Below the pieces are notes generated by a model. The model saw nothing but the letters and a program-made list of their open reading frames with translations. It was not told the origin of the DNA and did not search any database. This document shows positions 5,502-34,086 of a stretch of DNA of 64,000 nucleotides, in pieces. Position 1 is the stretch's first letter, and every line of letters starts with the position of its first letter. This DNA comes from Hydractinia symbiolongicarpus. Its lineage: Eukaryota; Cnidaria; Hydrozoa; Anthoathecata; Hydractiniidae. The stretch is from NCBI RefSeq assembly GCF_029227915.1, contig NC_079889.1, positions 1,426,001-1,490,000 on the forward strand, read 5' to 3'. Position numbers and translations under genes: made by a program.

Positions 5502-8500
5502 TTACATTGAAAAACCAGGGCCCCAGTGTTTAATACCATTACATGATTTGTAGGTGGCAAACAATAATACGCCTCTTGCAGTTTTCTGTACTTCAACGTG
5601 TCTAACACGCAACAATATTTCAGCTAACATCTCACAAAAATATGGCTTTATCGCACGAATGTCTAAATGTAGCTTTTCTAATCTCATTTCAAATTTGTTT
5701 TGCATTATTGATTTACGAAGATCGTAGATCACCCGTCGTGAGTGAGAGCGTACATGCAAGTGAACTTCTTTATAAAGTAGTAAAGTATCAAATAAAGCGC
5801 GAGTCACTTCACCGTAATCTCTATCGAAATCCTCTTCCCAATAAACAAAAAATATGGAATACCATTTAGAAGTATTAACCGAGTTTTTGGAGCAATAGTG
5901 CAATGAAGTTATTAAATACTTTAAACTGTCTTGATCAAAAGAATTAGAATATATAAATAAAATGGTTACACTACAAATGTCTGACATGATTTTTGACAAT
6001 CCAACTACACAGGATACGCCACCTTGATTTTGTTTAAATGTTATACCCAATACATCAAAGTCATTTCTGTATTTTTCAAGAAAATACACAAGCTCAGATT
6101 GTGTGTGTGAAGCATCCACTGTTAAGAACAAATCACTGCAATCAGATTTCAGTTTACACTGTTGAATGATCTTTTCGCTTAGGTTGTTTTGGTATTCAAA
6201 TATTCCTTGAAGTAATTGCGGATTTTTAGTTCTTAACAAGTTGTTAAGAGGATTATTTCCATGTTGAACAAGTCCCATATTTTTTACAAATTGTTTTAAA
6301 ATAGACGAAGACTCAGATTTAACTTTTAAAGCTCCGTGCAGACCACAAACAAGTGGTAAACAGCCAGATAACGAGGGGTTTGATGTAATGTCATTTTTAT
6401 GTTTGCCTTCAGGAAAGAAGTAGTACACAGCTGTTAAAAACTCTTGCATAAAGAGATGGTTGAATTGATACTTAAGTCCATCCATTGTTTGAAGTTTTGA
6501 AACTAAACCAGTAGCTTCAATATTTTCGTTTCTTATCTCCTTTGGTATGTCAGCGACATCTATTAGAATGGCGCCATGTGCAAGCATCTTTTGTGCAAGA
6601 AAGGACAAAGAAAATACAACTTTTTGTACACACTTTTCTTTGAAAATATCAAAAACATTTGATGTAAGTTGGTTACTTGGTCGGGTTTTGTAATGTCGAT
6701 GTAGAAACAACGCTAATTGCCAAACAAATAATTCTGTTGTTGTTTTCGGTGCATGGAGAAGTCGTTGTTCTTGATATAGAGAGCAAATTGTCCACAAATA
6801 AACTGGGATCCTCGAAAGGAGTTTTAACTGCTTTGATTCATAAATTTTTTTGCGTAAAAGGTTTCCAAGTTTGGCATCTGATCCACTAAAAACATTAATG
6901 TAATCAAGTACCTGCTCTGAGCTAAATCCAAGAATATCAACTTGTTTAATTGAAGCCGTAGAAAAAGAATTTCTTAAAACAGGACAAGCATTTGGTCTGG
7001 ATGTAATAATTGTTTTATGACCAGGCATTAAAGCATTATGCGGATTTATTGTTTCAAAAATGACTTTCGAAATATCGCTAACGTTGTCTGACTTCTGTTT
7101 TGAAATAGTATGCAAATCTTCAACTCTGGTGAACTCATCCAATCCGTCCATGATAAAAATAATTTTTTTTGAAACAGGAACAAGGTCAGTGAATTTCATT
7201 TTTGTAAACAGTAGCGGATACTTTTTCAGGACTAAATCATGGAGCGATGAAATATTGCGAACTAAATTCATTTCTCTAAACTTGAATAGAAAAACAAATT
7301 GGAAATTTTTCCAAATACGTTTCTCAGCCCAATTCAAGGCCATTGTCTTTACCATAAAAGATTTTCCGATTCCTCCAATACCTCTCAGCAAAACAATTTG
7401 ATTTTCTTTATCCAAAAGATTTTCCATGGTGCATTTCCCTTTTTGTGATAACATCTGCTTGATGTGAAACTCTCTAGCAGAATGTGTGTTGTTTATATCA
7501 ACATCTAAGCTATCCACAACTGCTAAGTCTACATAGAATCTTTTTCGGGATATAATTTGTCCATTTATATTTTCAATGTGTTCTTTTCCTATTCCTTCTA
7601 GATAATACTGCCTTAAAAGATCAGAAGCTTCTTTTAAATTTTTGTCGTCACCTAAAAGAAAATGCAATGGATCTTTTAAAATTGCCTTATGTTAGGAATG
7701 TGGCGTAGCGTAAAGCAAAGTCCCTTTATAGCATCGTTTATTATGTTGTAAGGCGCGATTTTGCCATCAATGACGGGTGTTAATTTATATTTATCACATG
7801 TATAGACGATGTTATTCAGCACTGAAAAGAATATTCATTTAAAGCTATTCAGTGGGAGAAGAGAGGAGAGGGACAGGGTAAAGTCTTAATCGTAACGTGT
7901 ACAATTCTGGTTGTGTTAGCACAAGTAAAGAATTTTGACACCGTGCGAAACATGTGTTTAAAAAAATATTAAAATTAAAAATAGCTAAAATATGCACAAA
8001 ATCTCTTTTTTAAAATGTTTGGTAATACAGCCGCCTTAAAGAAAGCAATTTACGAAAAAGTTTTAATGTTTTACAAATTATGGTTGTATGATATGCAACT
8101 GATAAAAATTAAATAAAGTAATTAACATTTTAATCTAAGAAGTTTTAAAACCAAAAAAGCGTCATAATGAATTTGACCTTTCTTTAGGGTTAAGACGAAA
8201 CATACTTTAAAACCACGTGCTATATCGTACATTCTAGTTCTGTATGCTAATTAGCATATCACTTGCTGTTTTTTTTAAACAATAAGCTTTTCATAACAAC
8301 ATGTTACGCGGGAGAATTTTCATCACAGGTTATTTCAATAGACACAAAAGATTAATATCAACTTCTTAATTCACTTAAAAGCAAATGATCATACCTGAAG
8401 AAAAGTAGCATATGGATACTGCAATACCAATAATTGCGATGCTAATCGCAATTATTGGATAGTACTGTTGACCCAGCTTTTGCAATGCAGTTACAAATAA

Positions 8501-9424
8501 TTTTAGCCACGCTTCCAGTTTCTCTACACGAACTTCCACACCTTAATAGTAAATTAAAGGTCAAAAGAAGAAGTATATATTTCTAAACTTTTAATAATTA
8601 AAACACATGCAAGAAGAGATACCTTTTAAATCATGTTTCAAAGAAGTAATATCTTCTTGCATCTGTGTTATAGAGTTATGCGCTTGCTCCAGCTCTTCTT
8701 TAATATCTTTGATGTCATTAGAATTACTCCACAACTTACATCTCATGCGTTCTAAACTTTCAATTATATTATTTGTCTGATTCTCAAGAGACAGATTTTT
8801 ATTTGTTAATTCATGTATCTGAGTGTCATGATGGTTTAATTTCGTTTGGTTGTACAAAATAATTGCTCGCAGCAACAAGTTGTTTTGAAGGTTTAGGTTA
8901 ACTGTTTTTAAATCGTTTACGTCAAATGGAGTGTCGTGTCCCAAGCCATTTATTATAACAAGAAGTTCATCCCATGTGGTTGAAAATTCTGGCTCTTTTA
9001 AAGCTGTTATACGAGGAAAATGATTGAGATAGTTGCGCATCTTTCTTGCTCTAATACAAAATGCTCCTACTGATTTGTCATTACCTGGTGGATCAACTTG
9101 TCGCCAGTTTCCATTATCTGGCTTGATAGTTGTCAATTCTTCAATTAACACTAAAATCAGCGTAATATCGAAAAGATTCGAGTCGGTTTCGGTTTTACCT
9201 TGGGGGTATAAAATTTCCCATTGTGGTTTTGTAATCACTTTTTTGCATTTTAATTCTGCCAGTATCTCTCTCTTAGATATTAAAAACTTGTACAAATCTT
9301 TTGGTTGCTTTGGCACTCCGTTGATGTACAAAACGTTTAAAAGAGCATCTCTGAGTGGTCCTAGTATAAACATGGCTAATCTGAGCCATAATTCACAGGA
9401 GGTTACAAATCTTTCCAGAGTCAT
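5502..9424 (-). CDS. HEPN-TM-NACHT receptor (NLR-like), copy A
   Basis: Three exons join in frame: 9426-8623 (ATG at 9424), 8541-8395 and 7651-5502, giving 1032 aa. Exon 1 has a DZIP3/hRUL138-like HEPN domain (residues about 15-170, DPPGNDKS and the RNYLNH form of the RNxxxH RNase motif) followed by a coiled coil (about 185-265). Exon 2 encodes a single membrane span (YYPIIAISIAIIGIAVSICY). Exon 3 encodes NACHT, with P-loop GIGGIGKS, Walker B KIIFIMDGLDEF and a TSRP motif, plus a long C-terminal region without visible leucine-rich repeats. Both introns are phase 1 with GT-AG ends. NACHT proteins of this class are innate immune sensors; the RNA-directed role suggested by HEPN is inference. Compared with copy B, the 3' end lacks 381 bases, which fuses the tail GVLLFATYKSC to the NACHT part. 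A 5' non-coding exon is likely, because AG directly precedes the ATG exon. Confidence 0.85.
8395..8541 (-). other. Membrane-span exon of NLR copy A
   Basis: This 147-base exon lies between TTAAG (acceptor) and GTATGATC (donor). It encodes 49 residues counting split codons: an amphipathic start (VEVRVEKLEAWLKLF) and then a hydrophobic helix of about 20 residues. Both boundaries are phase 1, matching the HEPN exon donor (AAAG/GTATCT) and the NACHT exon acceptor (TTTTAG/GTGACG). It is conserved in copy B at 21454-21597, one codon shorter. Confidence 0.85.
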
Positions 9425-15618: not shown

Positions 15619-17771
15619 TTAAGTTTCTTTCAACAATTTGTCCAATGCTTGCTTTAAGCAGTCTACTTCTTCGTCAGAAAATCTGTAAAATGCGCTTCTA
15701 GTTTTCTGTACTTCAACGTCTTTAACACGCAACAATATTTCAGCTAACATCTCACAAAAATATGGCTTTATCGCACGAATGTCTAAATGTAGCTTTTCTA
15801 ATCTCATTTCATATTTGTTTTGCATTATTGATTTACGAAGATCGTAGATCACCCGTCGTGAGTGAGAGGGTACATGCAAGTGAACTTGTTTATAAAGTAG
15901 TAAAGTATCAAATAAAGCGCGAGTCACTTCACCGTAATCTCTATCGAAATCCTCTCCCCAATAAACAAAAATTATGGAATACCATTTAGAAGTATAAACC
16001 GAGTTTTTGGAGCAATAGTGCAATGAAGTTATGAAATACTTTAAACTGCCTTGATCAAAAGAATTAGAATATATAATCAAACTGCTTACACTACAAATGT
16101 CTGACATGATTTTTGACAATCCAACTACACAGGATACGCCACCTTGATTTTGTTTAAATGTTATACCCAATACATCAAAGTCATTTCTGTATTTTTCAAG
16201 AAAATACACAAGCTCAGATTGTGTGTGTGAAGCATCCACTGTTAAGAATAAATCACTGCAACCAGATGTCAGTTTACACTGTTGAATGATCTTTTCGCTA
16301 AGGTTGTTTTGGTATTCAAATATTCCTTGAAGTAATTGCGGATTTTTAGTTCTTAACAAGTTGTTAAGAGGATTAATTCCATGTTGAACAAGTCCCATAT
16401 TTTTTACAAATTGTTTTAAAATAGACGAAGACTCAGATTTAACTTTTAAAGCTCCGTGCAGACCACAAACAAGTGGTAAACAGCCAGATAACGAGGGGTT
16501 TGATGTAATGTCATTTTTATGTTTGCCTTCAGGAAAGAAGTAGTACACAGCTGTTAAAAACTCTTGCATTAAAAGATGGTTGAATTGATACTTAAGTCCA
16601 TCCATTGTTTGAAGTTTTGAAACTAAACCAGTAGCTTCAATATTTTCGTTTCTTATCTCCTTTGGTATGCCAGCGACATCTATTAGAATGACGCCATCTG
16701 CAAGCATCTTTTGTGCAAGAAAGGACAAAGAAAATACAACTTTTTGTACACACTTTTCTTTGAAAATATCAAAAACATTTGATGTAAGTTGGTTACTTGG
16801 TCGGGTTTTGTAATGTCGATGTAGAAACAACGTTAATTGCCAAACAAATAACTCTGTTGTTGTTTTCGGTGCATGGAGAAGTCGTTGTTCTTGATATAGA
16901 GAGCAAATTGTCCACAAAAAAACTGGGATCCTCGAAAGGAGTTTTAACTGCTTTGATTCATAAATTTTTTTGCGTAAAAGGTTTCCAAGTTTGGTATCTG
17001 ATCCACTAAAAACATTAATGTAATCAAGTACCTGCTCTGAGCTAAATCCAAGAATATCAACTTGTTTAATTGAAGCCGTAGAAAAAGACTTTCGTAAAAC
17101 AGGACAAGCATTTGGTCTGGATGTAATAACTGTTTTATGACCAGGCATTAAAGCATTATGCGGATTTATTGTTTCAAAAATGACTTTTGAAATATCGCTA
17201 ACGTTGTCTGACTCCTGTTTTGAAATAATATGCAAATCTTCAACTCTGGTGAACTCATCCAATCCGTCCATGATAAAAATAATTTTTTTTGAAGCAGGAA
17301 CAAGGTCAGTGAATTTTATTTTTGTAAACAGGAGCGGATACTTTCTCAGGACTAAATCAGAGAGCGATGAAATATTGCGAACTACATTCATTTCTCTAAA
17401 CTTGAATAAAAAAACAAATCGAAAATTTGTCCAAATACGGTTCTCAGCCCAATTCAAGGCCATTGTCTTTACCATAAAAGATTTTCCAATTCCTCCAATA
17501 CCTCTCAGCAAAACAATTTGATTTTCTTCATCCAAAAGATTTTCCATGGTGCATTTTCCTTTTTGTGATAACATCTGCTTGATGTGAAACTCTCTAGCAG
17601 AATGTGTGTTATTAATATCAACATCTAAGCTATCCACAACTGCTAAGTCTACATAGAATCTTTTTCGGGATATAGTTTGTCCATTTATACTTTCAATGTG
17701 TTCTTTTCCTATTCCTTCTAGATAATACTGCCTTAAAAGATCAGAAGCTTCTTTTAAATTTTTGTCGTCAC
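15619..17771 (-). CDS. NACHT exon of NLR copy B
   Basis: The acceptor TTTTCTTTTAG precedes 17771, and the exon opens GT GAC GAC as in copy A. It encodes 716 residues with P-loop GIGGIGKS, Walker B KIIFIMDGLDEF and a TSRP motif, and no leucine-rich repeats are visible. The C-terminus (FYRFSDEEVDCLKQALDKLLKET, written here only to show it differs from copy A) ends at TAA 15619-15621. The frame is intact and nearly identical to copy A, so the ATPase may still be expressed. Its upstream partners are the membrane exon at 21454-21597 and a HEPN exon that is now split by an insertion. The intron to the membrane exon has grown to 3682 bases from 743 in copy A. Confidence 0.8.
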
Positions 17772-17884
17772 CTAAAAGAAAATGCAATGGATCTTTTAAG
17801 TTTGCCTTATGTTAGAAATTTGGCGGAGCGTAAAGCGAAGTCCCTTTATAGCATCGTTTATTATGTTGTAAGGCGCGATTTTGC

Positions 17885-22005: not shown

Positions 22006-24716
22006 TAGCCATAGTTACCACTAATGCGCCCCGAATTACTAATAACGATTTCAAACATTCAAATTTAGAACGGGATTTAAAATTAAAATGGAAAATGGTG
22101 GACGTTTGAAATCTATAAAAACTGCAGTGTTAGAACTTATTATTTTCGTTATTTTCACATTTGGCTAAGGCTCTATCTATAAAGTTAGTTCTTGATTAAA
22201 TATATGTACACTTTAAACGCCTCTAGCCTTCTTGTTGTGTAATTTCACGTAATCATTGCTTTTGATTTTTGGTTAAAATTCGTTCAAAAGACTTACGCAT
22301 ACATTTTTGACTTATCAAATCTCCAAAAATTCTTGTGCTGTAATAACAAATTGTGTCTGAAAGCTATTCTGCTGAAACATTTTCCGCCAAATATGACGAA
22401 TATGATAGAAATGCAGTACGGAATTGCATAGAGGCTTGTGAATAAGCTTATTGCCCAGGGGAAAATTTTTAAATAAGAAGCCCTGCGACTTGAAGATTTC
22501 CGTCATTAGCCTAAAAGATTCTGAAATTTGAAGTAGACTTTAAAACGGAGAACAATGGGGTATATAAACACATCATAAGTATCCTAATTCTCAATTATTA
22601 TTGCGTAAAATACAACTTGATAAATAAAAAATAATTTTTTTTTTACATATATATAGTATATATTCTAAAACAATAGTTAAAACTTTAACTGGATTTTTTT
22701 ATAACTGATCTCGAAAATTCCAGGATGCAGGATTGCTATGTATGAACTTCACGATTCGAATATATATAATAACTTCTGAACAATTTCAATTTCAATGAAT
22801 TATTACTCTGTTAAGTTACCAATAAAATCCTTAAAAATTTCTCTCGTTGAAGATTTTTCGAAACTGCTGATGGTGCATGGTTTCATAACAAATGATCTGA
22901 AAAAGAAAGTATATTTAAAATTGAGAAAGAAGAATACAATTTTACCAGAACTGAATTAATACTAGGTTGTTTAATTATTGTCTACTTATCTGATTTAAAG
23001 TTAGAATTTATTAAAAAGATACAAATCAATGCCATGTGATACACAAAAGGTATACTATATAAATAAAAATATATATATAAATTTAGTCAAGCTGGCTTTG
23101 ATATCATTGTTAAACAAGTATAATATTAAGCAGGCGATACAAGATTTTCAAACTTGTGGACAATACAGGACTTATTTTGTTGAAATCGATTTATTGAATT
23201 TTACAAATTTGATTGTTTATTATCGAGGAAATTGATTGGTCATTGTTTTCGAATTGAATTGAACAAGTTGATACAAAAAAGGGTAGACACTCAATTAATA
23301 AATTTGTCAGATTTGATAAATCAACAACATCATTTATAATTTCAAGAAAAAACATAAAAAAGGGAAGAAAACAAAGAAACCTGTAACATACTGTGGGTAG
23401 CGTCTAGTTGTACTGCAAGGGCTAACTATGTTATGTTATTGGTTAATTTATCAGTTCAACTTGACTGTTCCGTGCAATAAACAACAATATTTTTTCATGA
23501 TTCAACAAATATCTTTTTATATATATTCTTGCGGTCTGATTCGTGTCAACCAATCACGGGCAGCCATTATGAAATGGGGTACAAATGCCGTAATTAATGT
23601 TTTTGTGGTGAAATCTTCATAAATACAATACTGGATTTTTCAAGGAATTCTTTTTTTTTTAGTCAAATCTTTAATATGTTTTAGATACTGCTTAATTTTT
23701 GCCATTTTGCGACATTTTAACGACGTTTTACTTGTAAATTCTGTTTAAGTAAGGTTGCTACTTTGAAGGTTTGACCGTGAAAAGTCCACTTTGTTCTCCA
23801 TCAAATAGCAACGAAGGAGAACATTCTGACCGCAAGAATACATGATAGCAGTCTCACAAAGGTTCCTTTAGAAGTTATTTTACTCACCCAAAACGCCTAT
23901 ACTTTTTACGGTGTATGTGGCTTATCAGCACCCTCGTTGATAAAATTACACAGGGCAGGATAAAAGTTTTTTGTTGCTTCTGAAAAAAGGGACTCTAATG
24001 AAAGCACTATTTTGTGCAGTTCTAGCTTGATAGCTGTAGTACAAGTGAGAGTAGTTTTACGACTATTAACTTATAAAATGCAAGAATTTAAAAATAAGTA
24101 TTTAGCTCCCTAGCTACATCATTAAAGCTATTACGACAAGCCAGACCATCGGGAAGGGAAGACCAACAAAATGCAAGCAGTTTTAGTCATGGCCATACAC
24201 GGAATGTTCTGTTCTTGATTGACTTTAAATTGTGATGCATTTATAAATTGCGGCCTTTGGATCAACGCCATAAACCGTTCTGAGTTTAATTTCATATAAA
24301 ATATAAGTAATCCTTCTACTTACTGTTAACAAGTTTCGAAACAACTTGGACAAAGTAAAACAAACCTTTTCTTGAAGATAAATTCACTTGGGCTGCAGTG
24401 ACATTTAAGCATATTAAACGAGACAATATTACAAAGCTTTAAATTAACATAACAAAAGAATCTCGATTAATATTTTTTATGGCAGTCAAATCTTCAGAGA
24501 CAACAAAGAAACCGAGACAAGATAAGTTTTGCTCGATCAGTGTTATTTTTGTCTTGATGGTACCAAACACACAGGTTGTGTTATATCAAACCTAGGTTGG
24601 ATGTTCGAGCCGAAGTTCCCCCGCGAAGTTGAGAGTAAGAAAAAAACTTCTCCCATACATAAAACAAACACTATATACCCGCGGTCCACTAAATGTGCGC
24701 CCCTTCGGCGGGGCGC
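22006..24716. mobile_element. 2711-bp insertion in the HEPN exon, unclassified
   Basis: Copy A reads straight through this point (ATTATAACAAGAAG). In copy B, ATTATAAC is followed by the insert, and AACAAGAAG resumes at 24717. That is a likely 3-bp target duplication, AAC. Both ends contain a related direct motif: CCACTAATGCGCCCC near 22017 and CCACTAAATGTGCGCCCC near 24686. The right end forms a hairpin, GCGCCCC-TTCGGC-GGGGCGC. No transposase or integrase frame is visible inside, so it is a non-autonomous element of uncertain class. Confidence 0.75.
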
Positions 24717-25184
24717 AACAAGAAGTTCATCCCATGTGGTTGAAAATTCTGCCTCTTTTAAAGCTGTTATACGAGGAAAATGAATGAGGTAGTTGCGCAT
24801 CTGTCTTGCTCTAATACAAAATGCTCCTACTGATTTGTCATTACCTGGTGGATCATCTTGTCGCCAGTTTCCATCATTTGGCTTAATAGTTGTCAATTCT
24901 TTAATTAACACTAAAATCAGCGTAATATCGAAAAGATTCGAGTCGGTTTCGGTTTTACCTTGGGGGTATAAAATTTCCCATTGTGGTTTAGTAATCACCC
25001 CTCTGCCTTTTAACTGTGCCAGTAGAGTTTTCTTAGATATTAAAAACTTGTACAAATCTTTTGGTTGCTTTGGCACTCCGTTGATGTACAAAACGTTTAA
25101 AAGAGCATCTCTGAGTGGTCCTAGTATAAACATGGCTAACCTGAGCCATAATTCACAGGAGCTTACAAATCTTTCCAGAGTCAT
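24717..25184 (-). pseudogene. N-terminal half of split HEPN exon, NLR copy B
   Basis: It starts at ATG 25182-25184, right after the TTATTTCAG acceptor, as in copy A. It encodes MTLERFVSSCELWLRLAMF through the HEPN core, including QMRNYLIHF, which keeps the RNxxxH motif, and ends at TTWDELLV. Reading then runs into the insertion and picks up about 58 unrelated codons before a stop at 24543. Alone it could give a short HEPN-only protein of about 214 residues. Confidence 0.75.
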
Positions 25185-25900
25185 TTCTGAAATAAGAACG
25201 TAACGTAAACGATTCAATCATACGTTTTTTTGTCAAACAGTATTACAATTTTATTTCAAAAAAATATGACTTAAACTCGTGGGTACTTATTACAAAAGCG
25301 GTGTAACGAGCAATTTGTTTTAACGGGGAGATTTTAGGAGTCGCATTAAATTGGTATACTTTAAAACAAAAACTTAAATGTCATCTATTTCACAAGCAGA
25401 AATAAATTAAACTTGTATTTTAAATTTTATTTCAAGGTCTTTGTTGCTTAGTGTAGTTTTAATCATTTACCTTTATAATCGAATTAATTGGTAATCTGTT
25501 TTGCCCGAGTGCAAGTTATTTTGAAAACGACGTCCTTTTTAAATTTCAAATTATTTAACTGCGTCAAGGCCATCATTTAGTACGGCTCAAGTGTAGCGTT
25601 TTCCAAATCTTCCATATTTTCTATTGTTTACCATTGCGTGTATGGGCACATTGATAAGGTGGTTCGGAGCTTTTAGGTCCTGATTTACGTTAGTCTTACT
25701 ACTTGTTTACGGCCGTTGAGCAGAAGCCGAATATAAAAATTATTTGTTTAAAGGTCAAGAATTCAAAGGTTTTTTTCCCTAATATAATTTAAGTACTTGT
25801 TTTGAAATAAATGCTTGCAGAGACGCACTACAAGTTGAACTATATACTCTTCTTGACAATACCCTCTTGACCACCGTACTTTATTTATCAACCTATTTTA

Positions 25901-27590: not shown

Positions 27591-28923
27591 TTGCGTTTTA
27601 ATACAAGCTCACGAGCTTGTAATAAAAAATGGATGTGGTATTTTAGCAACATGAAAGATAAGACGCTAACTTTAAAGAAGGACTGGTGAGGGTTAATAAA
27701 AGAAACCACAAAGAACGGACTCCAAAAGAGGAACCAGGACATTGAAGCTGCAATCTATACTAAGAACCAAAAAGGATTGACCTATGACTCTGAACATCTA
27801 ATAAACCAAATTGAAGGTGTAAAGAATTTTATTTGAACAAAGAAAAATGTATGATGCCACGAGATTATAGTCTTCATTAAAATACACATTTTGCGAATAA
27901 AATTCAAACATGCAGCTCCTGTTGTTTTCGCCAAAAAAATGTAATCAATATAATTAGAATTTGTATAATAAATCAGAATTATTAATTAGAATTATTAACA
28001 GAAAAATTAATTATTCAATGTATTTTGATTAATAGTGATTGGACAGGTTATGGGTGCAGTCTAATGGAAAAGCATTAACTGTGCGTAGTAATAAAAGTTA
28101 ACCAAAAGCAGTTATCAAACAACAGCGAGTGTTAACAAGGCTTTTTTGATAAAGAATCATATACAGTCAACAAGTTTCAATAAATTTAAACTAACGTGTT
28201 GAGCTTTGCCTCTTTCCCTTGTTTCTTAGATTTTTGTTGCTGTATTTTATTAAATCACATCAATTTTGTCAGACTGTTGACAATTTTTTTTTGCACGAAA
28301 TTACTCGCTTGTGTAATTCCCATTTAAGTTGAGCGCTACTCTTTCATGTTGCGTACTTTATCTTACAGTGTTCAAAGAAGAACCTTATATTATCATCTAG
28401 AAATGAATACAGGTAATAAATGAAGGGCATCATTGTGTAACTTTAAATTAATGAGGGAAATATCAAGAAAAATAATTTACTTCAAATCAAATTTTAGAAA
28501 ATTAACATTGGATTAAATTTAAAAATACACCATTTTTTACAATTCCGTTCAATGCTAGAGTTTGAGTTTGTATACAAAAACATAACAACAAATTTTTTCG
28601 TTATTATTATCTGAAAACAATATTCACAATGAACCCATTACAATGTAAGTATGTTAGTAAAGCTTAGAAATAAAATTAATTGATCACTTAATTCAATTTT
28701 GAACACCAAAGAAATATAGATATGAGAAGAAATATTCTTAGTAATACTTACACTTTTGGCTGTAAATATTTGAACTTACGTTTTGATGAGGGTACAGACT
28801 TAGGGTTGACTTGCAACCGATAAAATGCAACCGATAAAATACTGTTAGCGTCGCTGATTTTTATAAAATGATTTTTCTTTTAAGTATTAATATCCTATGG
28901 ATGCCTTTAACAAAGAAGATACC
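27591..28923. other. Non-coding stretch left of the transposon
   Basis: AT-rich with no supported gene. A short duplication, GCAACCGATAAAAT, occurs twice at about 28815-28842. Confidence 0.5.
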
Positions 28924-28946
28924 TTAAGGGAAGAAATTTTCGCGGG
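28924..28946 (+). repeat. Left terminal inverted repeat
   Basis: TTAA followed by GGGAAGAAATTTTCGCGGG. It matches the complement of 32246-32268 at all 23 positions. Palindromic subterminal units with CGCGG edges follow at about 28941-29005. Confidence 0.9.
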
Positions 28947-29058
28947 AATTTAATTTCGCGGTTGATCAAAACGATTTTTTTCGCGGAATTTAATTTCGCG
29001 GTCGAGAAAAAAATATAATTTTCGCGGTCGAGAAAAAATAGTCTTTCTAAATTGTTAA

Positions 29059-30836
29059 TTACTCGTTACATTCATCATCGATAATGAAGTCAAATGCGTT
29101 TCTATCAAAGTCTTCTTCGAACCCCCATTCTGCATCATCATCATTGTCGTCGTCATCTTCATCATTTTCTACGATTTCGTTTACGTATCCTTCCCGTATC
29201 TCGTCCGATACTTCGATGAAGCTGGGCTGGTTAGCAATCTCATCCGGTGACATAGCCAACGGCGCTATCTCATTAAACGGGTCGACGCTTGGTAGATTCA
29301 ACTTTCCTTTCTTTATCGCATCATAAATTCCAGCAATTTTCCAACCTTTAACAATAACATCAACACCAGCTACTGAGGCGATGTGATTGTAGTAGTCCAC
29401 AATCCAACTTGCATGTAATGGTTTCATAGTCGTTAGTTTGAACTCAATGTTGATGTTTTCCACTTTTACTCCAGCATCAAGGGCGTTCTGAACCTGTTGT
29501 GTGTACCAATCAGAAAACTTGCTTTTCATGAATTTCTTGCAATGGCCGTTTACTGTTAAATCCAGCGGCTGGAATAGATGGGTCATATTGTTGGGTACCA
29601 TGATGAAAAATATGTTATTTCGTGTTAAGTGAGACGTGACTTCGTCGGTGATTTGGCCACGAAACACATCGAATACCAAGAGAGCTGCTTGGTCTGGCTT
29701 TCCCAGTGCTTCTCGCTGAGCCTTGACATATGGTAGAATAACCTCATCGATAACTTTTATTGATTCTGCTGTATTACTGAAGTGTTTTGGGTTAACACTC
29801 AAGCTAAATGAATCAGGGAATTTGAATCTTGGGAGACTTTGGGTAGTCTTTCCGCCGTAAATAAGTTGGATTGGTAGGAAGCTTCCATCCAATGTGACCA
29901 CAAAGGTAGCTGTTATGCAACGTTTATCAGATGAGCCTGCGATTCCGATAGACTTTGTGCCTTTTTTGGCCAATGTATGGTTGCCGCTTGGTACGTACTT
30001 GAGTGGAGTTTGGTCCAAATTCATTACGAGACTGTCTGGAATGTTATGTTCTTCGACAAGGGATACGATATCATGCAAATAGAGTAGTTGTGCTTCTTTT
30101 TTCGCTCCTTCGGGTATTTCGACCTTTCCTGTTGTTTTCATGCGTTTTACAAACCCCATTCTTTGAAATAAGCTCTTAGCCCAAGATGACGAATCGAGAT
30201 CGATGTGTGCTAAATTTAACTGTGGGTTTCGTGCAATTAGAGCTTTGGCAACTGATACCGCAATGGCAGACGTAATTATCCCCCCTCTGTTTCGCACCGC
30301 CAGTAGAAATTTTTGGACCATTTGGTCCAAAGTTCCTAGTAAAAGTGGTCGACCTCTTCTGAGAACTGCCAACTCACGTCCGACAGAACGCTTCTCCTTA
30401 CTCGCCTTTTTTACCTCGTCTTGATACAGTTTACACCACCCTCTAACAGTACTTTCGTTCAATGGTTGGCTTCTTGATGAAAATTTCCTCGTAGCAGCAG
30501 CGGGGCCGTGGATTGCAGCATATTTGCCGATATTAAATCTGTCTTCGTTTGACCATTTTTGGTAGGACTTTCTGTTGGTCTTTCGAGGAGTAGATGCGGC
30601 TTGGGCAGCAGCTTGGAAATCTAACGGTCCTAAACCTGATTCTCTCTGCAAGTTACGCGACGATTCTGAAAAATTAAAGGGATATCTGGGTATTACATTT
30701 GTATCAAATAAATATCAACTGCTTTAGAATTTTAATAATTCTAACAAGGCTTTAAACTCGGAAGATTTTTGCTTAAAAAGTAAGTATTACAATATGAAAG
30801 TTAATAATAAAAAGTAGTGTTACCTGAACTTGACAT
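29059..30836 (-). CDS. Pogo-like DDD transposase (two exons)
   Basis: Exon 1 is 13 bases (30836-30824, ATGTCAAGTTCAG/GTAACA). Exon 2 is 30665-29059, after an AATTTTTCAG acceptor. Joined, they give 539 aa starting MSSSESSRNLQRESG. No ATG precedes the conserved part in exon 2, which supports the tiny first exon. Residues about 35-90 form a helix-turn-helix DNA-binding region (WSNEDRFNIGKYAAIHG). The DDE_1 core has the acid residues D222 (NLDQT), D337 (VFDVFRG) and D373 (QPLDLTVNG), a DDD triad with 35 residues between the last two. The C-terminus is a highly acidic tail (ENDEDDDDNDDDAEWG). It would bind the element ends and cut and join DNA in the nucleus. It lies inside intact inverted repeats, opposite the HIRAN gene. 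Confidence 0.85.
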
Positions 30837-31044
30837 TTTTCTTTCGTCTTGTTTTGTCTTTTTCACATGAACGCGTTTGTTTACATGTGTCAGTTTATCA
30901 CCCAAACTCAAGAACACGAGTGAAAGATATTTTGATCGATGAACAATACAAATATACAAAATTTGTGGTTTAATAGACCATTTCTATATATCCAAAACGA
31001 GACGAATTTCTATTAAAAACTTTCAATGGTTTTTTTTTGTTTCG

Positions 31045-31235
31045 GGAGAGCAAATAAATGAACATTCGAAAAGAAAAATTTTCCAGACAACAATTTTCCC
31101 GCGTGTTTATCCTATTGTTTGAGGGGGAAACCCTTCGATGAGAGCAAATAAATGAACATTCGAAAAGAAAAATTTTCCAGACAACAATTTTCTCGCGTGT
31201 TTATCCTATTGTTTGAGGGGGAAACCCCTTACTCG
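31045..31235. repeat. 94-bp direct duplication in the divergent promoter region
   Basis: The block GAGCAAATAAATGAACATTCG through TTTGAGGGGGAAACC occurs twice, with CAAATAAATG at 31051 and at 31145 (period 94). The copies differ slightly (CCCGCG against CTCGCG). It lies between the transposase and HIRAN gene starts and could double promoter or transposase-binding sites. Confidence 0.85.
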
Positions 31236-31341
31236 CTGAAGTAAAGGAGACTGAAGTAAAAGAGAGTCAAACAATGAGGACAAACTTATTGAGACAAGAA
31301 GGAAACAAGAAAGTACAGAAGAAAGTTACTGTCACTGTAAG

Positions 31342-31965
31342 ATGGCGTACAGTAAAGTTTTCGAATTTTCAGCAGCAGTAAGAGGATACCATTATTATAA
31401 AAGCTTTTGGAATCCTCAGAGAGAACAATTTCTAGAATGTCATCACGAGTTTGGAAATCCCTTTGATCGTTTCGCGATCAAGGTTTGCGAAATAGGAGAT
31501 ACAAATGCAGTTGGTCATCTTCCACGAGAGATCTCGCGTGTTACAAAATTTTTCATGGATAGAGGAGCAATCGTTAATGCCAAGCTTACAAGTGAACATT
31601 ATAGACGCTCTCCCATCGTTCAAGGCGGTATGGAGATTCCATGTAAAATCACAGTGAAAATTGCTGGTATTTGTATTAACCTTCTGTTGATGGAAAAATA
31701 TAAACAACTTATAGAGGAATTGTACATTGAACCCAAGAATGAGGAAAATCTGGGATCCTTTTTACAACCTAATAATGTGACCGAGGAAAGCATCAATTTA
31801 CCTTCCACTTCATCCCAATCGAAGAAGAGCAAGTCCAAAGATGAAGCGAGCAATCAGAAAGATATCCGAAGTTTTTTTAGCAAGACCATTAGCATTAAAA
31901 CAACTACTAAAAGGCGAGATGGCAAGAAGAAAACGGAAAAGATTATCACGATTGACTCTGATTGA
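31342..31965 (+). CDS. HIRAN-domain protein with PIP box, transposon accessory gene
   Basis: A single-exon frame of 207 aa with a good start context (AAGATGG). Residues about 5-118 match a HIRAN domain: FSAAVRGYHYYKSFW, then HEFGNPFDRFAIKV and AVGHLPREIS. In HLTF/Rad5 this domain binds 3' single-stranded DNA ends at stalled forks. A serine/lysine-rich linker follows. QKDIRSFF at 172-179 fits the PCNA-interacting consensus QxxIxxFF, with basic residues after it. The extreme C-terminus, IITIDSD (201-207), looks like a SUMO-interaction motif. The gene lies within the inverted repeats and diverges from the transposase. The likely role, which is inferred, is to link transposition to replication or repair by contacting PCNA and DNA ends. 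It contains no catalytic domain. Confidence 0.8.
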   Translation: MAYSKVFEFSAAVRGYHYYKSFWNPQREQFLECHHEFGNPFDRFAIKVCEIGDTNAVGHLPREISRVTKFFMDRGAIVNAKLTSEHYRRSPIVQGGMEIPCKITVKIAGICINLLLMEKYKQLIEELYIEPKNEENLGSFLQPNNVTEESINLPSTSSQSKKSKSKDEASNQKDIRSFFSKTISIKTTTKRRDGKKKTEKIITIDSD

Positions 31966-32099
31966 TTAATGAAAGTTTTATTGATTATTGTAATTCTTAG
32001 AGCATCTCTTATGTTAGAAAAGATACTTTTATGTATATGCCATTTCTCCATTCTCAGTTTTCACTGAATTTATAATTCCAATGCAAATAAAATCAAAAA

Positions 32100-32268
32100 T
32101 TTTCGCGAGAATTTAATTTCGCGGTCAACAAATTTCGAAAAATTTCGCGGGAATTTAATTTCGCGGTCGGTGAATTTTTAAAATTTTCGCGGGAAGAAAA
32201 TTTCGCGGTTTTTTCCAAAAACCGCGAAAACCGCGAAATTTTCTTCCCGCGAAAATTTCTTCCCTTAA
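32100..32268. repeat. Right end of the transposon: subterminal repeats, palindrome and TIR
   Basis: Two AATTTAATTTCGCGGTC units at about 32107-32166 are followed by a long palindrome (about 32180-32262). Its arms read AATTTTCGCGGGAAGAAAAT outward from each side of a short TTTTTTCC-type loop. The final 23 bases are the inverted repeat. Folding potential is high. Confidence 0.8.
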
Positions 32269-32654
32269 TAATCTTTAACATAGAAAGATATGAAACTTAT
32301 CAGTATGACATCATATCCACAAAATAATGACAAATATAATTATGTACTATCACTACTATACTTTGAATAAAGAAACTATGTCAATGTAAAAATTTAACGA
32401 TTTCGGGATTTTTGGCCTAGATCCCCAAAGTTATTTTACTCAAAATGTATCGAAATTGACTATTTGGAAAAATTAATTCTCGCGGATTTATATTTATTCT
32501 GAAATTTATTTTATAAGACAAAATTTCCCTTTACATTATTTTTGTGTAGTAATTGTTAACCAATCTTTGAATTGATTCAAAATAACGTGTTTTTCCTTGT
32601 TGATGGCATTTTACGGCAACATATACTATCTCAGAAAACTTTAAAAAATTAAAA

Positions 32655-32850
32655 CTATCAGTCTCGAAAGTTGTTTCTCGCAAAGAAAATTAAAAGTGGC
32701 TATCCGCGAAAGATATTTCCCGAGATTTCACGAAAGATTTTCCCTTGATTTTGCAATATATTTCCCTATATTTCACGAAAGGTATTCTTTGCCTAGATTT
32801 CACAAAATTATCTCCCTTGATTTCGCCAAAGTTTCTTCCTTTTCTACTAT
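32655..32850. repeat. Degraded relative of the transposon subterminal repeats
   Basis: This segment alternates short motifs such as CGCGAAAGATATTTCCC, TTCACGAAAGATTTTCCC and TTTCGCCAAAGTTTC, like the CGCGAAA/TTTCGCG units at the ends of 28924-32268. It opens frames on both strands that are artefacts of the repeat. It directly abuts the 3' end of the CAP gene. Confidence 0.45.
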
Positions 32851-34086
32851 TAAAATGTTGGCGGTAAAACATTTTGTTCAAACTGTCTCAGCATATTACC
32901 AGCTGGAAAGTATCTTGCAACTATGTATACACTGCTTCCTCCGTTCTTTTGGCACTTCACTACTCCCAATCCAAGTTTACGAGATGACTTCCAAATTATT
33001 TGGGTAAAATGACCAACTCCACTTTTATATCCAGGATTTTTAAAGTCATACTTGCTTATTTCTTCGTACCTATTTGACAAAGAAAAGAAGATAATACTAA
33101 AAATTTTTTATTAAGCTAGGGGGTCATAAAAAGATATTATAGCATGAAACTAACTCGCTTTCATTGTATCGCACATTTATTTATTAAATGTCACGTGTAA
33201 AAACGTGAAACACACGTGTTCCAAACTTTTGACATATTCAGTATACACGTTTTCTTTTATAAACAGTGCAAAAACTTTGGCAGGAGTCTCAGCGGTGCTT
33301 AAGTTTCAATATTTTACAGAATCAACTGTTTCCCTGCTTAGTTGGGCTGATGAGGATAATTTAATTTAAGAGTCAAATAGAGTTAAATTTGAAAATACAG
33401 TATGTTTTCAATTCCTTTCAATGCTAAAGTTTGCTTAATGAAGTATGCAATAAATATAGCCACAATATTTTTAAGTTGTAATTATCCAAAAATAACATTT
33501 TTAATCAACCCATTACAATGTACGTATGTTTAGTAAAGTCTGGAAATAAAATTTAATAGTCACATGGTTCAAATTTTAAACATCAAAGAACGTAAATACA
33601 TAAATATAAGAAACAAACATGCATCGCTTTTTGCAAGTTAACCACATAACTTTTGTAACAAGAAGAGTGTCGAAAATTATTGTTGTTCTTATAATCTATG
33701 ACCCCTGTTCTCTCTTATCTTACTTACTCACTGGCTGATTGTTGCTTATGATTTCGTTTTGGTTTTAAAGCTTTGGCTAACAATTAATTATGTTGTTCAG
33801 GAGAAGCTAACAAATTTTAAACGTCGGAAGGTTTAATAAATGCGTTCCAAGTATTATTCTTACCACTTGTGCACAGCTTTTATGCCAGCTTCATTTTTAT
33901 TCACATCACCTGAAGACCACTGTGAGTATACATTTTCTCCAAACTCTCCATCATCATGATCAAGTTTACCAATCGCCGCTAAATGGTCAGCCCATTTTTG
34001 TGCACCTTTTGCTAAACTGGCATCCCAAACTAAATCTGGAGCTTGATGTTTCCGCCGGTAAGTGTTGTGAGCATTTAATATGTTTT
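32850..34086 (-). CDS. GLIPR2: GAPR-1/GLIPR2-like CAP-domain protein (5' exon not found)
   Basis: Two exons are clear: 34086-33864 (acceptor TTTATTTCAG, donor TG/GTAAGA) and 33069-32850 (acceptor CAAATAG, stop at 32850). The split codon restores Trp in KAVHKW-YEEISKYDF. The joined protein follows the cytosolic CAP family from ENILNAHNTYRRKH to VARYFPAGN and ENVLPPTF. The conserved tetrad is visible: His in KLDHDD, Glu in GENV, Glu in WYEEI and His in GHFTQ. The frame stays open upstream of 34086 but without an ATG, so a short first exon must lie at higher coordinates. The family binds Golgi or lipid-raft membranes and regulates autophagy in mammals; that role here is by homology. An ETHE1-style complete gene could not be built. 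Confidence 0.85.

Follow-up and report, generated by a model that had tools for sequence, protein, structure and literature searches.

A two-gene DNA transposon of Hydractinia symbiolongicarpus encodes a HIRAN-domain partner protein with conserved PIP-like and SIM-like motifs

Tn7 encodes TnsE, a protein that binds both to recessed 3' ends and to the sliding clamp and directs the transposon to replicating DNA (PMC5371812; this paper and the three cited below are used here in excerpt). Clamp-binding motifs are also known within transposases, including the PIP boxes reported in those of pogo, Tigger and Lemi1; in the excerpt their relevance is unclear and a PIP box is no criterion of membership (PMC5371812). 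The HIRAN domain of HLTF accommodates a dinucleotide in a cavity whose borders are formed by Y72 and Y93; when N90 and N91 were both mutated, HIRAN function was fully impaired (PMC4666394). A free 3'-OH is preferred by the HLTF-type HIRAN, whereas the HIRAN of Rad5 binds ssDNA without a 3'-OH preference; PCNA binding by HLTF is described in the excerpt as not detectable (PMC7804152). The SIM of Srs2 is formed by its last five residues, IIVID, and accompanies a PCNA interaction site (PMC4030836).

The window analyzed here is the whole 64,000-nucleotide stretch of H. symbiolongicarpus DNA. Judged from its sequence, the interval 28922..32268 is a recently active, autonomous two-gene cut-and-paste DNA transposon. 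The transposon superfamily is already known; what appears to be new is a dedicated partner of the clamp-docking and end-binding type, its binding being predicted. The features of the element, with their positions in the window, are:

28920..28921, no strand: left target-site duplication TA (sibling flanks read TA, then CC...GG, then TA)
28922..28948, plus strand: left terminal inverted repeat, 27 bp
28938..29027, plus strand: left subterminal TTTCGCGG repeats, 5 sites
29059..30665, minus strand: transposase exon 2 (DDE_1, DD35D, acidic C-terminal tail)
30666..30823, minus strand: inferred transposase intron GT...AG, 158 bp, predicted from sequence
30824..30836, minus strand: inferred transposase exon 1 with the start codon, 13 nt
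31046..31228 (end approximate), no strand: tandem duplication with a period of 94 bp, between the divergent genes
31342..31965, plus strand: gene of the HIRAN-PIP-SIM accessory protein, 207 aa
31360..31596, plus strand: HIRAN domain (Pfam match at residues 7-85; fold match at residues 1-127)
31855..31878, plus strand: PIP-like motif QKDIRSFF, residues 172-179
31942..31962, plus strand: C-terminal SIM-like motif IITIDSD, residues 201-207
32117..32254, both strands: right subterminal TTTCGCGG repeats, 8 sites
32244..32268, minus strand: right terminal inverted repeat, 25 bp, 2 bp less than in most sibling copies
32269..32270, no strand: right target-site duplication TA (from the flanks of sibling copies)

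The element adjoins a fragment of a gene with a CAP (cysteine-rich secretory) domain, at 32850-33080 on the minus strand. The window also holds two NACHT-domain ORFs that closely resemble each other (721 and 722 aa; minus strand, 5502-7667 and 15619-17787), as well as HEPN_DZIP3 ORFs at 8591-9424 and 24543-25217; together these ORFs probably represent a duplicated NLR-like receptor locus.

A DNA search of the H. symbiolongicarpus genome, in which 40 of 254 candidates were scored so that copy numbers are lower bounds, identified at least 15 copies in which both ends are present (family 1). Given that five of these are 100% identical across 3343-3345 bp and have flanks that differ between sites, the element is more than a chance arrangement. 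The sequence-only reading had called for a search for full-length copies with both genes between matching ends, and 7 of the 15 copies carry both genes, with frames that are open and identical. The case that it had named against itself, the same ends and transposase without the HIRAN gene, was not seen, as no copy (0/15) had a full transposase gene and lacked a full HIRAN gene. The other 8 of the 15 copies are internally deleted at 98-100% identity, and 3 of these 8 retain a full HIRAN gene but not a full transposase gene. One such deletion form, in which most of the transposase is gone, is found both at L017 (C3:22846905) and at L018 (C3:22643397), 203 kb apart; since the flanks of the two differ, mobilization in trans is suggested, and this derivative probably moved in trans and locally. 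Besides the five identical copies, the seven with both genes include two that measure 3439 and 3251 bp; each departs from 3345 bp by 94 bp, the length of one unit of the tandem repeat that separates the divergent genes and is a possible tuner of expression. A locus of ~159 bp, L024 (C7:12701991-12702149), matches only the end regions of the element, at 81%, and is MITE-like.

A second family in the same genome, first seen as 22 equal-scoring matches with 71% DNA identity to the HIRAN gene, has the same head-to-head layout in an element of 3.48 kb, with 58% protein identity to the first. Eighteen of the 22 matches were retrieved. Because these loci were selected through the HIRAN gene, the presence of the transposase is the sole test there: it was full length with an open main exon in 15 of the 18 and deleted in 3, and the HIRAN protein, by whose gene the loci were selected, was 100% identical in 18/18. 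Between the two families pS is saturated (0.76 for the HIRAN gene and 0.85 for the transposase) and pN is lower (0.22 for the HIRAN domain, 0.47 for the HIRAN tail and 0.26 for the transposase). Thus, both genes have been under purifying selection, the tail least; taken over its full length, the tail shows poor conservation between the families. It should be noted that two copy pairs lie <50 kb apart, compared to 0.07 expected under a uniform distribution (10 of 5,000 simulations), one of them being among the four family-2 matches not retrieved; these numbers, which are small, hint at local jumps.

The inverted ends described in the sequence-only reading are real, but their perfect match extends for 25 bp from 28924 and 32268, not for the 23 bp given there. 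Over 40 nt, the inverted arms of the window copy are 93% identical. The outer boundary of sibling copies lies 2 bp beyond this point (CCTTAAGGG...), which gives them a perfect repeat of 27 bp and makes TA the target-site duplication. Ends of the form CCTTAAGGG...CCCTTAAGG flanked by TA on each side were found in 12/15 family-1 and 17/18 family-2 copies; the outermost bases of both families are CCTTAAGGGAA, and the perfect inverted repeat measures 41 bp in the second family, as against 27 bp in a sibling copy of the first and 25 bp in the window copy. A TTAA target duplication, considered from one copy, was ruled out by the sibling flanks. The window contains the subterminal TTTCGCGG 16 times, and 13 of these sites lie inside the element; shuffling expects 0.91 for the whole window. 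In the window copy, L019 and L035, the right end is 2 bp short and TA is present on both sides; in L013, we read a right end that lacks 4 bp and is followed by TA; automated scoring gave no TA on that side. Ends short by 2 or 4 bp were thus found in 4/33 copies, always at the HIRAN-side end (32268 in the window), and may have been left by a staggered cut or by end repair.

The short ends and the internal deletions bear on an alternative in which the HIRAN protein is a repair helper that caps short 3' overhangs after cutting and recruits PCNA and its polymerase for gap filling at the new insertion site or for biasing donor repair toward copy-back of the element. Tc1/mariner-type cleavage leaves short 3' overhangs. 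Such overhangs would suit the cavity of HIRAN, which accommodates a single dinucleotide (PMC4666394, excerpt). The internal deletions (8/15 in family 1 and 3/18 in family 2) are as expected of interrupted gap repair, and the restriction of the 4/33 short ends to the HIRAN side also favors this alternative. However, many transposons without such a partner show internal deletions, and neither the deletions nor the short ends are tied to the HIRAN protein, so we regard a repair helper as possible, if rather doubtful.

The DDD transposase had been called intact, which our analysis confirmed: its minus-strand ORF is open for 530 aa, and for 539 aa when the inferred 158-bp intron and 13-nt exon 1 are included. 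It matched DDE_1 (E=2.6e-8), its D213, D328 and D364 are unchanged in 54 sequences, and the DDE_1 domain was present in 54/54 members of the transposase alignment. Its fold is the RNase H-like DDE/D fold of mariner, Mos1-like, with DD35D spacing; no chain was matched when the transposase profile was run against PDB sequences at E 0.1. The TA target-site duplication and the mariner-fold DDE/D transposase, i.e., both IS630-Tc1-mariner criteria tested, are found in this element. The pogo group has an N-terminal helix-turn-helix of the CENP-B/Tc5 type, and its ends typically begin with CAGT-like sequences, a typical and not a strictly defining feature. Here, HTH_Tnp_Tc5 was matched in only 2 of the 54 alignment members, and N-terminal helices are present in the predicted model. 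The label pogo-like applies in part only: the DDE_1 catalytic domain agrees with it, and TA and DD35D fit IS630-Tc1-mariner. Safely, the element is filed under IS630-Tc1-mariner with DDE_1 and DD35D. A PIP motif was found in 0 of the 120 listed transposase relatives, which bears out the proposal that the clamp-type motif resides in a separate partner and not in the transposase.

This partner, the divergently encoded 207-aa protein, scored 26.4 bits against a Pfam cut-off of 24.7 for HIRAN, and the predicted fold also matched. In the HMMER alignment to HLTF, the family kept N91 in 36/38, D94 in 38/38 and H110 in 37/38 sequences; Y72 was mostly kept (30/38), F stood at the position of Y93 in 36/38, and R71 and N90 were not conserved (H and G/D/N stand at their positions, respectively). 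The HLTF-type DNA-binding cavity thus appears to be partly conserved. Past the region that aligns to HLTF by sequence lies a YRRSP(L/I)VQGG(M/L)EI stretch at residues 87-99, in which YRRS is invariant in the 38 sequences. The earlier statement that the HIRAN of HLTF and Rad5 binds 3' ends holds for the HLTF type, but not for the Rad5 type, which has no 3'-OH preference (PMC7804152, excerpt). Given this difference, and given that PCNA binding by HLTF is not detectable, a HIRAN domain alone is no proof of 3'-end reading. Relatives of the HIRAN protein were not found in phages, viral contigs or prokaryotic genome contigs at the sensitivities used, and a viral or bacterial source is therefore unsupported.

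The tail that follows the HIRAN domain is variable and lysine rich, and is modeled with low confidence. Both motifs that had been noticed in it are present: QKDIRSFF fits the full PIP consensus Qxx[ILM]xx[FY][FY], and IITIDSD, a SIM-like hydrophobic core with Asp, forms the C-terminus. In an alignment of 38 sequences (window protein included), hand-picked among relatives with full tails so that the figures lean toward intact tails, residues 172-179 reach 3.31 bits/column, as does the domain (3.31), and residues 200-205 reach 2.84, compared to 1.36 and 1.26 in the linkers; I175 and D205 are invariant. From 141 listed relatives, after 25 with short tails and 28 without a recognized domain end had been left out, 88 tails could be scored; the PIP-like motif was present in 75 of these, the terminal motif in 69 and both in 64. 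Among the 13 tails without the PIP-like pattern and the 19 without the SIM-like pattern, several look truncated or frameshifted to us. The first Q of the PIP motif is often replaced across the family while DIRxFF is kept (Q in 33 of 120 listed; 12 of 141 with a stricter pattern). Human RFC1 starts with a DIRKFF-type PIP box. In a shuffled-tail control on 58 of 120 proteins, which takes no account of their relatedness, the DIRxFF-type motif was found in 46/58 compared to 0.005 after shuffling, and the terminal core in 42/58 compared to 0.21. Among 120 listed transposases, 28 also show the SIM pattern in their final 7 residues, and a 24-aa tail peptide had no match among PDB sequences.

Two alternatives turn on this tail. 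In the first, the HIRAN protein is an anti-recombination or timing factor like Srs2, whose PIP and SIM compete for SUMO-PCNA and thereby suppress recombination or limit transposition to S phase. The presence of both motifs in 64/88 tails, with a PCNA-type site and a SIM at the very C-terminus as in Srs2, is consistent with such a factor, but the 207-aa protein has no helicase part and its conserved HIRAN domain would be left unexplained, which makes this alternative improbable. In the second, the protein serves only as an additional DNA-binding subunit at the transposon ends, and the tail motifs serve nuclear localization or stability. Although the linker from the domain to the PIP motif is lysine rich in the family, it is variable, whereas DIRxFF and the terminal Asp show hardly any variation, a degree of conservation that a localization signal does not need; we consider this subunit very improbable.

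Beyond this genome, relatives of the HIRAN protein numbered 419 by single-sequence search and 1,252 by profile search, and those of the transposase at least 458 among the candidates scored. The proposed check for co-occurrence yielded nine further HIRAN/transposase pairs that share a source and have contigs equal in size; the match covered 141 of the 1,252 HIRAN proteins and 119 of the 458 transposases (1 of 120 was left out) and is one of contig sizes in two lists, not of contig sequences. Pairwise distances of the HIRAN proteins and transposases correlate (r 0.77, 2 of 20,000 permutations; in another sequence set r 0.59, 21 of 20,000 permutations). In a tree of 90 transposases, the 11 with a known partner lie on both sides of the midpoint root (rooting assumed). 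Together, these pairs, distances and tree positions are read by us as the signature of an old, stable partnership. Against it stand two decayed transposase fragments, L043 (1 stop) and L044 (8 stops), without a HIRAN match in 9.8 kb. In the literature searched, which was limited in scope and did not extend to repeat databases such as Repbase, no paper described the pairing.

Given that the HLTF cavity is partly kept and that the HLTF type prefers a free 3'-OH, we propose that the protein acts as an adaptor linking a 3' DNA end to PCNA, with SUMO on or near PCNA as a further cue. The transposase would cut and join at TA, and the HIRAN domain would hold a 3' ssDNA end, which could be the cleaved transposon or donor end or the nascent strand at a fork or gap. 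The PIP-like motif would dock on PCNA and the terminal SIM-like motif would read SUMO, the simplest case being SUMO attached to PCNA, as in Srs2. The reaction or its products would thus be placed near the clamp and the polymerases, leading to insertion or gap filling at replicating or repairing DNA. The sequences show the structure of the element, the linkage of its genes, their recent mobility, purifying selection, a predicted HIRAN fold and two conserved motifs, whereas we infer the binding to PCNA, SUMO and 3' ends, and with it the role of the HIRAN protein; with binding so predicted, we lean slightly toward an adaptor that ties transposition to PCNA and 3' ends, be it TnsE-like or a repair helper. 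Between target choice and repair as the outcome, the sequence does not decide. More tentatively, and with a lesser chance of being right, the adaptor could be a eukaryotic counterpart of TnsE, i.e., a target selector that reads 3' ends and (SUMO-)PCNA and brings about insertion at replicating or post-replicative gapped DNA; beyond the anatomy, the two copy pairs within 50 kb lend it weak support. If it were true, a widespread eukaryotic transposon lineage would encode a dedicated target-site selector. In elements whose recently moved copies are identical, a separate conserved protein combines a 3'-end-binding type of fold with motifs of the clamp and SUMO types. The old question of how eukaryotic DNA transposons use the replication machinery can thus be tested by removal of a single small gene or of two short motifs.

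Compared to the pogo/Tc5-like elements of IS630-Tc1-mariner (DDE_1), this element has two genes arranged head to head and ends that begin CCTTAAGGG, and, in contrast to pogo, Tigger and Lemi1, its transposase is without a PIP box (PMC5371812, excerpt). Unlike the HIRAN domains of HLTF and Rad5, that of the partner protein stands alone, with no SNF2 or RING part, and has the conserved YRRSP stretch and H in place of R71. Like Srs2, with its terminal IIVID (PMC4030836, excerpt), the protein combines a PCNA-type site with a SIM-like motif at the very C-terminus, but it contains no helicase, and we take the likeness to be convergent. The closest parallel in mode of action known to us would be TnsE of Tn7. 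The two are likened by reported activity only, and the Hydractinia element differs in addressing, as predicted, the eukaryotic clamp, in having a SUMO-type motif and in lacking TnsABC; in both, a separate element-encoded protein is involved, with a HIRAN domain and a PIP-like motif here where the excerpt on TnsE describes binding to recessed 3' ends and the clamp.
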